64,000 bases of DNA, from assembly GCA_903231505.1 (NCBI GenBank), contig CAFBRK010000184.1, positions 1-64,000 of the forward strand, in the 5' to 3' direction. Under the pieces are notes generated by a model. The model was not told the DNA's origin and ran no database searches. It was given only the letters and a program-made list of their open reading frames with translations. Below are positions 28,081-57,107 of the stretch, in pieces (position 1 is the first letter of the stretch; every line of letters starts with the position of its first letter). A program made the translations under genes and the position numbers. Source of the DNA: Olavius algarvensis associated proteobacterium Delta 3. GTDB lineage: Bacteria > Desulfobacterota > Desulfobacteria > Desulfobacterales > CAFBRK01.

Positions 28081-28779
28081 GTGATCTGGGGAAAAGCCGG
28101 GTTTACCCTTCTGGAGTTGATGATTGTCGTTTCCCTTATCATGGCGCTTGCCGCCATCGGGGTGCCGACTTATCTCGGGTATCTCCAAAAGGCCAGGACG
28201 ACCAAGGCCATTGCGGATATCCGCCGGGTGGATCGGGTGATCCAATACTACCTGGCCGATATGGAAGAATTGCCGGATAGCCTCGATGACATCGGAGAGG
28301 GCGCCCATACAGACCCCTGGGGGAATCCGTATCGGTATCTGCTGATTGACACCACCAAGAAGGGACAAAAAGCGCTTTCGAGCCTCGATCTGCCCGGGGA
28401 GGATCTGCCGTTCCTCGGCTTTCTGGAAATCAATACCGTGACCCTGTCCGCGGTGACCGGCAAGAAAGACAAGACCGGCTCCCCTCCCGGCAAGGGCAAA
28501 GACACGCCGCCCGGTCAGGACAAGCAGGACGACAAAACCACCGGTCAGGACAAGCAGGACGACAAAACCACCGGCCAGGACAAGCAGGACGACAAAACTA
28601 CCCAGGGCAACCTTACGCCGAGAAAAGACGGCAGCGAGAATCCGATCAACCTGGATTACGATCTCTACAGTATGGGACCGGATGGCGATTCCAAGCCCAA
28701 CCTGAGTTCCAAAGCCGGCTCTGACGATATCATCCGGGGAAGCTCCGGCGATTACTTCGGCCCGGCCAACTACTATTAA
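28081..28779 (+). CDS. GspG-like pseudopilin with internal tandem repeat
   Basis: The product has a type IV pilin leader: with the GTG at 28081 (GAGGA five bases upstream) it begins VIWGKAG followed by FTLLELMIVVSLIM, so PilD-type cleavage would fall at Gly7/Phe8. An upstream ATG at 27964 is in frame but gives a 46-residue leader. The mature domain has the GspG landmarks DPWGNPYRY and YDLYSMGPDG. Between them lies a charged insert with three exact-length copies of GQDKQDDKTT. It heads a four-gene run with a lipoprotein and two membrane signalling proteins; other secretion genes are not adjacent. Confidence 0.85.
   Translation: MIWGKAGFTLLELMIVVSLIMALAAIGVPTYLGYLQKARTTKAIADIRRVDRVIQYYLADMEELPDSLDDIGEGAHTDPWGNPYRYLLIDTTKKGQKALSSLDLPGEDLPFLGFLEINTVTLSAVTGKKDKTGSPPGKGKDTPPGQDKQDDKTTGQDKQDDKTTGQDKQDDKTTQGNLTPRKDGSENPINLDYDLYSMGPDGDSKPNLSSKAGSDDIIRGSSGDYFGPANYY
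28513..28602 (+). repeat. Three 30-bp tandem repeats inside the pseudopilin gene
   Basis: Three consecutive 30-base units (28513-28542, 28543-28572, 28573-28602) encode GQDKQDDKTT each. Units one and two are identical; unit three differs at two synonymous positions. A partial related unit (PPGQDKQ context) precedes them. Multiples of three keep the frame, so copy number can vary without breaking the gene. Confidence 0.95.
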
Positions 28780-34666: not shown

Positions 34667-34701
34667 CGATACACGATACAAGATGCAAGCTACAAGCATC
34701 A
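34667..34701. repeat. Five-unit heptamer array between trpS and scpA
   Basis: Five consecutive 7-base units, CGATACA, CGATACA, AGATGCA, AGCTACA, AGCATCA, keep exact spacing, with weaker 7-base spacing continuing toward 34780. The units resemble those in the first part of the long array at 54991-55207. Confidence 0.65.
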
Positions 34702-34791
34702 GGGATCCGAGAGATCTAAAATCTTTTTCCTGTATCCTGGATCTTGCGGCCTGCATCCCTGACAACCGGCCAACCCTTCGACACGCCCAGG

Positions 34792-34831
34792 GCAAGCGGG
34801 CCAGCGGGCACACGGGCAGACGGGTGAACGA
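34792..34831. repeat. Five-unit octamer array next to trpS
   Basis: Five 8-base units, GCAAGCGG, GCCAGCGG, GCACACGG, GCAGACGG, GTGAACGA, follow each other without gaps and end nine bases from the trpS stop codon. The same octamer core occurs at 51743-51831 and 55208-55262. Confidence 0.65.
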
Positions 34832-51475: not shown

Positions 51476-51554
51476 GGTAAGCAATACCATACGGTTCAGA
51501 GCGCATGACATACACGGAATAGCCCCACGTCGAAATGGGGCTGCCGAAGTTCAA

Positions 51555-51628
51555 CCACGAAGAACACGAAGCTCACGAAGAAGGGGAAGATAAAAGAGGT
51601 ACCTTCGTGCTCTTCGTGTTCTTCGTGG
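51555..51628. repeat. 26-bp inverted repeat of CACGAAG units
   Basis: The left arm (51555-51580) is built of CCACGAAGA, ACACGAAG and CTCACGAAG units. The right arm (51603-51628) is its complement at 24 of 26 positions, with 22 bases between. CACGAAG-rich palindromes of this look occur as dispersed intergenic repeats in various bacteria. Confidence 0.65.
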
Positions 51629-51742
51629 TATTTAGAAATTTTAAACCTCAACAAGAGACACTCTCTCGGTAAACTCAAAGCCTGTCGCGCCGTGTGACGG
51701 GCGCACCGGTCTTCGCCCTCCGGGCTGCGCCCTGGCAGGCGG

Positions 51743-51831
51743 GCTAACGGTGCCACCGGGCATACGGGCCCGCGGGCAAACGGGCAAACGGGCCAACGGG
51801 CCCACGGGCCCACGGGCCAACCGGCAAACCA
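51743..51831. repeat. Eleven-unit octamer array abutting lpxI
   Basis: From 51760 nine 8-base units follow without a gap: GCATACGG, GCCCGCGG, GCAAACGG twice, GCCAACGG, GCCCACGG twice, GCCAACCG, GCAAACCA. Two more units precede with a one-base slip. The array takes the place where the lpxI ribosome site would lie. Confidence 0.75.
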
Positions 51832-51837
51832 AAAAAG

Positions 51838-52659
51838 ATGGAACGAATCGGCCTAATAGCGGGGAGCGGGCAGTTCCCCATCATTTTTTCAAGGGAAGCC
51901 ACGGCCCAGGGGTATGCCGTATACGTCGTGGCCCACCGGAATGAAACCGATCCGGTCATTGAAGAGCATGTGGCGGCTGTCGAGTGGATTCACTTGGGAC
52001 AGTTCAAACGGGCACTCCGCTTTTTTAAGCTAAATCAGATCACCCAGACCGTCATGATGGGGGCGATCGATAAAACGCGGATATTTCGTGATGTCCGGCC
52101 GGACACCAAAGCGATCGCACTGGCGGTGAAAATGCTGCATACCCACGATGATAATCTGCTGAGCACGGTTGCAACAGTTCTTGAGGATGAGGGGATTCGG
52201 GTCCGATCGTCGACGTTTCTGCTGCCCCATTTACTGGCACCGAAAGGTTGCTGGACCCGTCGGAAACCATCCAAGAGTGAAACAGACGACATTGCCATCG
52301 GATGGCGGCGGGCCAAAGCGATCGGTGCCCTGGATATCGGACAGTGTGTGGTTGTCGGTGGCGGGTCCGTACTGGCTGTCGAGGCCATCGAAGGGACCGA
52401 CGCCACAATCCGTCGCGGCGGGGGCTTCAGCCGGGGCGGGGCTGTTGTGGTAAAGGTCTGCAAGCCGCAGCAGGACACCCGGTTTGATGTGCCCGCCATC
52501 GGAGTCCAGACGATTCTTACGATGAGAGACGCCGGCGCCACAGCGCTTGCCCTTGAAGCCGGAAAGGCGGTGGTGTTTGATCGGGAGGAAATGGTGGCCT
52601 TGGCGGATCGACACGGCATATCGATCATTGCACTGTCGGACGGAGAGATGGCCGGATAA
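51838..52659 (+). CDS. lpxI: UDP-2,3-diacylglucosamine diphosphatase LpxI
   Basis: LpxI hydrolyses UDP-2,3-diacylglucosamine to lipid X and UMP; it replaces the unrelated LpxH of enterobacteria. The 273-residue protein has the family start RIGLIAGSGQFPIIF, MMGAIDKTRIFRD, HTHDDNLLSTVATVLE-type helix, VVGGGSVLAVEAIEGTD (about 175-191) and VPAIGVQTI. Its place between lpxA and lpxB fits. The ATG has only A-rich sequence upstream and no clear Shine-Dalgarno, because an octamer array ends six bases away. Confidence 0.93.
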   Translation: MERIGLIAGSGQFPIIFSREATAQGYAVYVVAHRNETDPVIEEHVAAVEWIHLGQFKRALRFFKLNQITQTVMMGAIDKTRIFRDVRPDTKAIALAVKMLHTHDDNLLSTVATVLEDEGIRVRSSTFLLPHLLAPKGCWTRRKPSKSETDDIAIGWRRAKAIGALDIGQCVVVGGGSVLAVEAIEGTDATIRRGGGFSRGGAVVVKVCKPQQDTRFDVPAIGVQTILTMRDAGATALALEAGKAVVFDREEMVALADRHGISIIALSDGEMAG

Positions 52660-53758: not shown

Positions 53759-54907
53759 ATGACGGCGCCATCGAACGGAAAAAAGTGCGTCATGATCATC
53801 GCCGGCGAAGCCTCCGGGGATGCCCATGGGGCCGCATTGGTGAAGGCCATGCGCCGACTCAACGACCGGCTGGTCTTCTGCGGGATCGGCGGAGAACGTC
53901 TTCGGGCCGCCGGGGTGAAAATTGTGGTGGAGGCGTCGAGCCTCTCGGTGGTCGGGTTCACGGAGGTCTTTGCCAAGCTTCCCCAGTTGATGCAGGGGAT
54001 TTCAAGAGCCAAAGGCCTGTTGAAAAACCTTCGCCCGGATCTTCTTATTTTGATCGATTTTCCGGATTTTAATCTGCACATCGCCGGAACCGCAAATAAG
54101 CTGAGCATCCCCGTAATGTACTACATCAGCCCACAGATCTGGGCATGGCGCCAGGGTCGGGTGAATAAGATCCGGCGCCGGGTAGACCGCATGGTCGTGA
54201 TCCTGCCCTTCGAGGAAGCGTTCTATCGTAAGCACGGGGTTCCGGTCAGCTTTGTCGGCCATCCGCTGATGGATGATCCATCGATCGCGGAAGAGAAAGC
54301 CGGCAACCCCCGTGGGGATTTCTCGAGCCCGGTTGTCGGTTTACTGCCCGGCTCCCGGGATTGGGAGGTAGAGCGTCACCTGCCGGTGATGCTTGAGGCT
54401 GCGGCAATACTTCAAGGGCTCGAGCCGGGTATACGATTTATGATTTCGGCGGCGCCGTCTGTGGGACGCGACGTCATCACGCCCATGATAGAGACGGCTG
54501 CGGCACCGGACTGCATTGTTTACGAAGGGGATGTCCGGCACATATTCCAGAACAGCACGCTGGTTGTCGCGGCCTCTGGAACGGTTACCCTGGAGGCGGC
54601 ATTACGGGGTGTCCCCACGGTGATCGTATACCGTATCTCTCCCGCAAGCGCGAGGCTGGGCCGACTGCTGATCAAGGTCCGGCATGCCGGGCTAATAAAC
54701 CTGATCGCCGGAAAAACCGTTTTGCCGGAACTTATCCAGGAAGACGCTACTGCGGAGAATATCGCAGCGATTGTGCTGGCGATGGTGCGAAAACCTGAAA
54801 GAATGGACCGGGTGCGCCGCGAATTACTCGAGGCAAGAACCCTGTTGGGCGAGCCCGGCGCTTCCCACCGGGCAGCAGGGATTGCCCTGGAGATGCTGGA
54901 TACGTGA
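53759..54907 (+). CDS. lpxB: Lipid-A-disaccharide synthase LpxB
   Basis: LpxB (family GT19) joins lipid X and UDP-2,3-diacylglucosamine into the lipid A disaccharide at the inner membrane. The 382-residue protein has IIAGEASGDAHGAALV (about 11-26), CGIGGERLRAAG, LLILIDFPDFNLH, YYISPQIWAWRQGR and the donor-site AASGTVTLEAAL (about 263-274). It ends the first part of the lipid A run; a 385-base periodic-repeat region precedes msbA. Confidence 0.97.
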   Translation: MTAPSNGKKCVMIIAGEASGDAHGAALVKAMRRLNDRLVFCGIGGERLRAAGVKIVVEASSLSVVGFTEVFAKLPQLMQGISRAKGLLKNLRPDLLILIDFPDFNLHIAGTANKLSIPVMYYISPQIWAWRQGRVNKIRRRVDRMVVILPFEEAFYRKHGVPVSFVGHPLMDDPSIAEEKAGNPRGDFSSPVVGLLPGSRDWEVERHLPVMLEAAAILQGLEPGIRFMISAAPSVGRDVITPMIETAAAPDCIVYEGDVRHIFQNSTLVVAASGTVTLEAALRGVPTVIVYRISPASARLGRLLIKVRHAGLINLIAGKTVLPELIQEDATAENIAAIVLAMVRKPERMDRVRRELLEARTLLGEPGASHRAAGIALEMLDT

Positions 54908-54990
54908 TGCTTGCCCGTCCGCCTGAGGCGGATAAACCCTGGTCGCCTTTGGCGCCGCCGGAGGCGGGTAAACCTCTGGCGGGCTGTTTT

Positions 54991-55207
54991 CTGGATGCTG
55001 GATGCTGGATGCTCGATACTGGATACTGGATGCAGAGATCGAAGATACAAGATCCAGGATACAGGGTTGCTGATCAGCTGAAAGCTCAAAGTTGAAAGCT
55101 GAAAGATTCGAAGCTGAAAGTTCAAAGTTGAAAGCTGAAAGAACAAGATACTAAATCAGTACCGAGTACCTAATACCCAGTACCCAGTACCAAATACCGA
55201 ATATCTA
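54991..55207. repeat. Heterogeneous heptamer array, about 31 units
   Basis: For 217 bases the sequence keeps 7-base spacing while the unit changes gradually: CTGGATG (three identical at the start), CTGGATA, ACAAGAT, CCAGGAT, then AAGCTGA, AAGTTGA, AAGCTCA, then GTACCGA, GTACCTA, ATACCCA, GTACCCA. One 8-base slip occurs near 55103. Any seven-base phase has stop codons or rare peptides, so it is not coding. Confidence 0.8.
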
Positions 55208-55262
55208 AAACGGGCCAACGGGCAAACGGGCAAACCGGATAACCGGCAACCCGGATAACCAG
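55208..55262. repeat. Octamer array continuing the heptamer array
   Basis: The period changes from seven to eight: CCAACGGG, CAAACGGG, CAAACCGG, ATAACCGG, CAACCCGG, ATAACCAG. The CAAACGGG-type core equals that of the arrays at 34792-34831 and 51743-51831. Confidence 0.75.
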
Positions 55263-55292
55263 ATCAATCATAAACAAGGATAAGTAACCACA

Positions 55293-57107
55293 ATGGCACT
55301 ATTTCGATTGCCAAAATTACGGCCCCGCCACAAGCGTATCGTCGGCATGGTCTTTGAGAACCGCTTCCGGTTGTTGATCGCCATGGGTTGCAGTCTGGTG
55401 ATTTCCGCCACAACGGCGTTGTCGGCGTATCTGATCAAGCCGGTTATCGACGACATTTTCTTCAAAGGCGACCTGACGATGCTCAAGGTCCTGCCCATTG
55501 CGGTCGTCCTGATCTATGTCGCACGGGGCGTCGGCATGTACGGCCAGGAGTACATGATGAACTATGTGGGGGAGAGCATCATCATGAAGTTTCGAAACAC
55601 CCTCTACGCCCGGATCCAGGATCTGCCCCTGTCCTTTTTCCATTCGGAAACCACCGGAGTGCTCATGTCCCGGATTACCCATGACGTATCGATCGCCAAG
55701 GGCATGGTTTCTTCGGCCGTTACCGGGGTCCTCAGAGATGTGTTCAGCGTTATCGGGCTGACATTCGTCATTTTTTATCAGGACTGGAAAATGGCGATCT
55801 TCGCATTCCTGGTTCTGCCGGCGACATTCTATCCGGTCATTGAATTCGGCCGCCGGGTCCGGCGGGTCAGCACCGGATGCCAGGAGGCCTTCGCAGACCT
55901 CAACAGTTTCCTGCACGAGACCTTTTCCGGCAACAAGATCGTCAAAGCGTTCGGTATGGAAGAGTATGAAAAAAAGAGATTCGCCGAAAGAACCGGGAGC
56001 TACTTTCAACTGGAGATGAAAGCGGTCATCGCACGCTCCCTGTCGTCACCCATCATGGAGTTCCTGGGAGGCGTGGGGATTGCTTTCGTTATATGGTACG
56101 GGGGGTACAAGGTAATTACCGGGGCGTCCACGGCCGGCACCTTTTTTTCATTCATGGGTGCTGTGATCATGCTCTACGATCCCGTGAAGAAACTGAGCGG
56201 CCTCAATAATGCGATCCAGCAAGGGATGGCCGCCACGGACCGGATGTTCGATGTGCTGGAGCGGGAGTCGGATATCCGGGAAGACCCGGATCCGGTAACC
56301 CTGGAGCGTAAACCCCACCGGGTTTCGTTCCAGCAGGTCTCCTTCAAATACGACGAGGCCATGGTGCTCAGGGACATCAACCTGGATGTCGAGGCCGGCG
56401 AGATCCTGGCCATCGTGGGTATGAGCGGCGGGGGCAAAACCTCCCTGGTAAACCTCGTCCCCCGGTTTTACGACGTCTCGGAAGGCCGCATCGCGATTGA
56501 TGGCACGGACATCCGGAAGGCGTCTATCAAATCCCTTCGGGATCAAATCGCCATCGTTACCCAGGAGCCGATCCTTTTTGACGACACGGTTCGTAACAAC
56601 ATCGCTTACGGAAATCCAGATGCCACGGAAGAGGATATCATACGCGCAGCCAAGGCGGCGTATGCGTATGATTTCGTGAAAGGCTTTTCAAACCAGTTCG
56701 AAACGACCATCGGCGAGTTGGGCTCGAGATTGTCCGGGGGAGAGAAACAGCGGATCTGCATTGCCCGGGCATTGCTCAAGGATGCCCCCATCCTGATTCT
56801 GGATGAGGCAACATCTTCCCTGGATGCCGAATCCGAATTGCTGGTGCAGAAGGCCCTGGAAAATTTAATGATCGGTCGAACCACCTTCGTCATTGCCCAT
56901 CGACTTTCGACCATCAGCTACGCCAAGCGGATTATCGTCCTGGTAAACGGCCGGATTGTCGAAGAGGGGACCCAGGACGATTTGATCCATCTTGACGGCG
57001 CCTATTGCAAGCTGTACCGGATGCAGCACTTTGGAAATTCCGAACTTTTGTCAGACGGCGAGTCGGTATCCAGGGGGGGCGGAGACAAAAACCGATGCCA
57101 GAGCTGA
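55293..57107 (+). CDS. msbA: Lipid A export ABC transporter MsbA
   Basis: MsbA flips the lipid A core across the inner membrane. The 604-residue half-transporter has six membrane helices (about 20-310) and an ABC domain (about 345-590): Walker A GMSGGGKTSLV (about 377-387), Q-loop VTQEPILF, signature LSGGEKQRICIARALL (about 480-495), Walker B ILILDEATSSLD and H-loop VIAHRLSTI. The position after lpxB supports lipid A rather than drug or peptide transport. It overlaps the next gene by 13 bases. Confidence 0.92.
   Translation: MALFRLPKLRPRHKRIVGMVFENRFRLLIAMGCSLVISATTALSAYLIKPVIDDIFFKGDLTMLKVLPIAVVLIYVARGVGMYGQEYMMNYVGESIIMKFRNTLYARIQDLPLSFFHSETTGVLMSRITHDVSIAKGMVSSAVTGVLRDVFSVIGLTFVIFYQDWKMAIFAFLVLPATFYPVIEFGRRVRRVSTGCQEAFADLNSFLHETFSGNKIVKAFGMEEYEKKRFAERTGSYFQLEMKAVIARSLSSPIMEFLGGVGIAFVIWYGGYKVITGASTAGTFFSFMGAVIMLYDPVKKLSGLNNAIQQGMAATDRMFDVLERESDIREDPDPVTLERKPHRVSFQQVSFKYDEAMVLRDINLDVEAGEILAIVGMSGGGKTSLVNLVPRFYDVSEGRIAIDGTDIRKASIKSLRDQIAIVTQEPILFDDTVRNNIAYGNPDATEEDIIRAAKAAYAYDFVKGFSNQFETTIGELGSRLSGGEKQRICIARALLKDAPILILDEATSSLDAESELLVQKALENLMIGRTTFVIAHRLSTISYAKRIIVLVNGRIVEEGTQDDLIHLDGAYCKLYRMQHFGNSELLSDGESVSRGGGDKNRCQS

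Follow-up and report, generated by a model that had tools for sequence, protein, structure and literature searches.

The window analysed here is the whole stretch of 64,000 nt taken from contig C184 of an assembly of 5.74 Mb in 350 contigs (94% complete). The genome belongs to the order Desulfobacterales, as does its relative G118, which over the stretches compared is identical in sequence to a public Desulfobacterales MAG (JAGMBW010000030.1). Between lpxB and an msbA-type gene it carries an array of short tandem words that reads as five successive modules, A to E. With gene boundaries taken from a simple ORF caller, the features of this locus and the two further arrays of the window are the following.

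34667 to 34824, forward strand: second array of the window, a shorter composite of B words then E words
51740 to 51830, forward strand: third array of the window, which has only the E module and stops 8 nt short of the ATG of an LpxI-like ORF
53759 to 54907, forward strand: lpxB, lipid-A-disaccharide synthase, 382 aa (TIGR00215, 1.5e-83, above cut-off)
54906 to 54990, no strand assigned: nested G+C-rich palindromic REP-like element, with 48 matches in the genome
54991 to 55033, forward strand: module A, six 7-nt units CTGGATR/CTCGATA (TRF score 65)
54991 to 55064, no strand assigned: imperfect A+B hairpin (DNA fold of 54985-55072)
55036 to 55065, forward strand: module B, 7-nt units GATACAA/GATCCAG/GATACAG (TRF and direct reading)
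55076 to 55141, forward strand: module C, 7-nt units GCTGAAAG/GTTSAAAG (TRF)
55076 to 55238, forward strand: C-D-E block common to three loci, the others being C243:19568 (96%) and C243:34691 (95%, from 55112 on)
55157 to 55203, forward strand: module D, 7-nt units CAGTACC/CAATACC/AAATACC (TRF)
55208 to 55264, forward strand: module E, 8-nt units CGGGCAAA/CCGGATAA (TRF)
55293 to 57107, forward strand: msbA-type lipid A export ABC transporter gene (TIGR02203, 3e-172, 574 bits)

The msbA-type gene starts 29 nt past the array end, and its match of 574 bits is slightly below the family cut-off of 602; the profile match of the LpxI-like ORF (51838-52659) likewise falls below its cut-off. At the other border, reading of the junction shows that the final codons of lpxB (ATG CTG GAT ACG TGA) already resemble one module-A unit (CTGGATA). 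The REP-like element that follows has a DNA fold of −20.9 kcal/mol (z −2.65) and contains a terminator-like stem at 54955-54982. Module B is approximately the reverse complement of module A, and the A+B hairpin (54985-55072) reaches −16.3 kcal/mol (z −5.1), a stability equalled in 0 shuffles. Across the genome the arrays are mostly unstructured (median fold z −0.1, n = 67), and an Rfam search gave zero matches.

The first-pass annotation had placed the array at 54991-55262, correctly to within a few bases, and its account of a 7-nt periodicity followed by an 8-nt one is borne out. Over 54991-55205 the identity at lag 7 reaches 0.66, compared with 0.27 for dinucleotide shuffles (z 13.2), and over 55205-55262 the identity at lag 8 is 0.70 (z 6.1); the stated number of about 31 heptamer positions agrees with the length (215/7 = 31), and the 8-nt part, module E, comprises seven units. 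The period had also been called strict, which does not hold along the whole array: short linkers and register breaks separate the blocks in TRF and on direct reading. The proposed gradual drift of the unit is refuted: the word switches abruptly at block borders, and each block's word is reused across the genome. The array is indeed a mosaic, made of five words, although that description overlooked the fixed order, the polarity and the dispersal of the blocks.

The expectation that similar arrays occur elsewhere, with lags 7 and 8 above control, was confirmed in a 464-kb sample of the same genome chosen regardless of repeats. It holds 21 lag-7 and 15 lag-8 array segments, as compared with at most 8 for each of the other lags from 5 to 13 and 0 in first-order Markov sequences. 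The arrays are mainly intergenic, with 21-22% of array bases in called ORFs, while 83-84% of the DNA is coding. When the array DNA was used as a query, 135 matching pieces were recovered from the genome; dozens of loci carry its blocks, and the words in use across the genome belong mostly to one small recurring set.

These blocks also follow one another in a set order. Modules A to E, together with a sixth word, X (GGAGGTC), were defined from the first loci, and both strands were scored. The 29 clusters contain 292 module hits, of which 290 fall on one strand (A read forward), and neighbouring modules follow the order A-B-(X)-C-D-E, in which X or C comes after B, in 70 forward as opposed to 5 backward pairs. 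Eight restarts from E to A were read as head-to-tail composites. Most composites contain two to six words, the copy between lpxB and msbA being among the few with all five modules; the clusters that break the order are L006, L319, L321, L324 and L325. Loci fetched later and deduplicated, counted by hand, gave 24 forward and 5 backward pairs (p 0.0005), and 504 kb of sequence taken blind to arrays, in which a few clusters duplicate loci of the first set, gave 57 of 59 hits coherent in strand, with 15 forward pairs and 1 backward pair. The modules were defined after the first loci had been seen, and most loci had been picked up because they resemble the lpxB-msbA array; because the copies are related by descent and were ascertained in this way, the p-values overstate independence, and the counts should be read as a pattern, not as events independent of one another.

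The composites are also oriented with respect to genes. In gaps between co-directional genes of this genome, 25 lie in sense and 3 in antisense (A read forward), and the single words behave alike in such gaps (sense to antisense, A 18:2, C 13:1, E 23:2, X 6:0), except that D taken alone has no bias (5:4). Module A between divergent genes was seen in 0/32 cases. The first A-like unit begins at a median of 12 nt past the upstream stop codon, and the head gap is smaller than the tail gap in 20 of 25 composites (medians of 14 and 94 nt). Outside this genome, the A word shows no preferred orientation (7:7 within the order, 6:5 in other phyla), so the polarity is a property of this lineage's composite and not of the word.

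Such placement raises the question of function. The composites may act as 3'-UTR elements that slow decay from the 3' end, affect ribosomes near the stop codon or mark RNA ends, with selection keeping their order and sense orientation. The sense excess of 25:3, the onset about 12 nt past the stop and the lack of module A in divergent gaps would all fit, and in E. coli REP elements lying 15 nt or less from a stop codon have been reported to lower translation (PMC12306157). On the other hand, modules are freely lost or repeated, unit number is highly variable, and the weak structure, the empty Rfam search and an orthologous gap that in relatives lacks the array all speak against a maintained function, which leaves this explanation rather unlikely.

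How the arrays grow can be read from the similarity of their units. Within homogeneous blocks of this genome, similarity exceeds that of shuffled unit order with z = 2.1 at a distance of one unit and 5.0 at two; in homogeneous blocks of relatives, the values are 4.6 and 7.5. Plain decay of similarity with distance was discarded as evidence, being inflated by array detection, a bias that the shuffled-order test avoids. The result points to growth of blocks by local duplication in steps of 7 and 14 nt. Since similarity depends on the neighbour, it fits local duplication and not a fixed external template; the excess towards neighbours, strongest at two units (14 nt), likewise upholds the earlier preference for copying over protein phasing. 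A second kind of copying operates over long range: a block of 140 nt is 95-100% identical at the lpxB-msbA locus and at two positions of contig C243, the flanking sequences being unrelated, and other pairs of loci have stretches of 150-260 nt in common. Two processes are thus visible, local copying of units and long-range copying of blocks.

Templated addition, one of the two copying mechanisms offered by the first-pass annotation, would have a reverse transcriptase or telomerase-like enzyme copying short RNA templates, one for each word. It could account for a period better kept than the sequence and for one period across different words, but it is disfavoured by the dependence of unit similarity on distance within the array, a pattern of local copying. 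The genome, 94% complete, gave no RVT_1 (PF00078) match, and neither did the array-bearing genomes G011, G015, G118 and G148, whereas array-poor G036 has six; the reverse transcriptase expected of telomerase-, retron- or DGR-like repeats is therefore missing from the RVT_1 searches. For RVT_1 enzymes this explanation is largely refuted, and we consider it barely credible overall. Counts of Y1 transposase and MutS do not track array density.

Slippage, the other mechanism offered, agrees with the local copying of units, but slippage alone does not explain an ordered, polar and dispersed mosaic. In its plainest form, it would make these arrays ordinary heptanucleotide microsatellites, each locus arising by its own polymerase slippage and the mosaic being a chance succession of events. 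According to Mrazek and co-workers (Mrazek 2007), as relayed by later papers (PMC4679880; PMC4692102), no other class of long simple repeat is as abundant as the heptanucleotides in most bacterial genomes, for which slippage together with polymerase contacts has been proposed as the explanation. The local unit-order signal and the patchy distribution among relatives are what this account would predict, but it leaves unexplained the words, order and strand common to dozens of loci, the near-identical 140-nt block at three of them and the post-stop placement. Independent microsatellites are thus already contradicted as a full account, and we give them only a small chance, much as for the functional elements above.

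Comparison with relatives suggests that the composite is restricted to this Desulfobacterales lineage. Among about 24 relatives of the order in which both genes could be placed, none has a composite array in the lpxB-msbA gap, which is 0-70 bp long (closed or short) or filled with unrelated sequence. Within the family, G001 has CTGGATG arrays and lacks a match to the C-D-E block, in a comparison of two members (this genome and G001) that contains no close strain. The A-E order was found in none of the other genomes sampled; an unsupervised grammar test there met too few repeated pairs. Viral contigs gave 15 stretches with the A word and 0 composites. Simple 7-nt arrays are common but patchy among relatives, with 21 in 60 kb of G118 and 0 in 100 kb of G018 or G030, although these densities are not strictly comparable because some samples were picked near known hits.

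Several bacterial repeat systems resemble parts of this picture. Single-word heptamer arrays have been described in Beggiatoaceae (TAACTGA), cyanobacteria (STRR; GGGGAYT in Nostoc) and Xanthomonas (GGGAATC) (PMC4679880; PMC4692102), and a survey of prokaryotic satellites mentions heptamer-derived families (PMC6749651). The present arrays are like them in their intergenic head-to-tail 7-nt units, patchy taxonomy and variable length, and the repeats of Xanthomonas also form convergent pairs capable of stem-loops (PMC4692102; PMC4679880). The kinship with cyanobacterial STRR proposed earlier therefore stands in the sense of intergenic heptamer arrays, with tandem 7-nt units above chance and mostly outside genes, but it fails for the single word per array: here there are five or six, in fixed order and orientation, with a final 8-nt word and copying between loci.

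In architecture, the arrays resemble the BOX elements of Streptococcus pneumoniae and S. suis, dispersed intergenic composites with a fixed module order and a variable tandem core, which spread after species divergence (PMC3049150). Fixed module order, variable copy number and genome-wide dispersal are found here too, and no kinship by descent is claimed. In BOX, however, modules of unique sequence flank one tandem core, with terminal inverted repeats and target duplications, whereas each of the present modules is in turn an array of short units; neither target-site duplications nor terminal inverted repeats were seen at the junctions read, in comparisons with relatives that include no close strain. 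A dedicated mobility gene and an empty site at base resolution were likewise looked for and not found. REP elements of E. coli often lie no more than about 20 nt from a stop codon (PMC12306157), which recalls the post-stop position of the arrays (median 12 nt), and a palindromic REP-like element accompanies them; REPs, however, are single palindromes, while array units are direct repeats and mostly unstructured.

The multicopy sequences of Geobacter metallireducens, a former deltaproteobacterium, are tandem 7- and 8-nt words as well, often in opposite-strand pairs, yet each site holds three to five repeats of one consensus and no ordered multi-word composite (PMC2700814). Protein binding was proposed for those sites, and the present arrays might by analogy bind nucleoid proteins or a regulator. 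Several unrelated words per array, variable length and a period that is not a multiple of the helical turn argue against it, no candidate protein has emerged, and we regard binding as very unlikely to be the explanation. An ordered, polar composite made of short-word arrays alone was not found described in the open-access literature; runs of single heptamer words are known, and what appears to be new here is their ordered, directional assembly behind stop codons.

Taken together, we consider it probable, though well short of certain, that the lpxB-msbA array is a full A-B-C-D-E copy of a lineage-specific, dispersed, polar BOX-like composite, resized by slippage and passed between loci. Common words, fixed order and strand, sense placement, a near-identical C-D-E block at three loci and, inside blocks, local similarity from unit to unit and at 14 nt are its direct observational basis. 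In a composite of this kind, blocks would lengthen or shorten by replication slippage, one or two units per step; a loop of 7-8 nt exceeds the normal range of MutS-type repair. Whole blocks or composites may pass between loci through ectopic recombination or gene conversion between arrays, or else the composite may be mobilised as a BOX/MITE-like element, and copies could join head to tail (E then A). The sense, post-stop position might reflect an insertion preference, or selection against disturbance of promoters or antisense transcription. In transcripts the array is probably part of a 3'-UTR or of intercistronic RNA, and the composite could be explained without a beneficial function. A more far-reaching reading, which we think unlikely but less so than either microsatellites or functional 3'-UTR elements, is a new class of dispersed element whose body consists of ordered 7/8-nt microsatellites, targeted to or maintained in sense behind stop codons. 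Such an element would act on the transcript or by way of it, and would have a period-setting mechanism of its own and words that recur in unrelated bacteria.

The copying idea of the first-pass annotation was thus half right, the larger finding being an ordered, sense-oriented composite family. Heptamer repeats have long been regarded as single-word oddities of slippage. A family ordered on one strand behind stop codons implies that slippage is half the story, and that some further process relocates or arranges the blocks and links them to transcription. Comparison of strains within the lineage could time block gain, unit gain and insertion separately, and the composite family makes testable both the bacterial preference for a 7-nt period and the recurrence of words in unrelated phyla.

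As to this recurrence, CTGGATR arrays (L085-L164) occur in Bacteroidota, Calditrichota, Verrucomicrobiota, Planctomycetota, Chloroflexota, Omnitrophota and other groups, frequently at the ends of contigs. Shared vocabulary was rejected as proof of common descent: four tandem CTGGATR units are found in many phyla, yet there are no more than about 1,200 heptamer classes for some 85,000 genomes, so that meeting one word repeatedly proves little. The scramble control GTCAGTR matched in 18 of 291 genomes, against 25. With query words omitted, words are nevertheless shared between families or phyla in 32 exact coincidences, compared with 9.7 ± 3.1 for random non-coding heptamers, and between the order and other phyla in 13, compared with 4.9 ± 2.0; a previous test on a smaller scale had given a weak result (4 against 1.2). 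Apart from ordinary dinucleotide bias (TA low, GA/TC and AA high), no property of the words was found to explain the sharing.

Hairpins deserve separate mention. In several relatives arrays form long hairpins, made of two runs of one word in opposite orientations, with fold z down to −12; examples from other Desulfobacterales families are L278:7940-8110, L314:12810-13000, L314:18060-18210, L284:9710-9810 and L220:12410-12535, with arms of about 30-70 nt. Precise fold-back copying was considered for these palindromes and rejected, since arms match in register only slightly better than with shuffled units (0.86 against 0.80, with the register picked by maximum); most hairpins are thus simply one word in two orientations. 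In genome G011 (L220-L229), unlike many-word relatives, the sampled arrays all belong to one word family (AGRCTGA).

The nested palindromic REP-like element at 54906-54990 recurs at 47 further places in the genome, with several insertions between A units, and splits module A in this way at L012 and L324. Elsewhere in the window, 51552-51630 is a hairpin with arms built from 9-nt repeats (CACGAAGAA ... TTCTTCGTG); it shows the same architecture with another period and sits closely upstream of the E array at 51740-51830. Positions 28511-28602 hold three near-perfect copies of a 30-bp unit, whose period is divisible by three and which is possibly coding.
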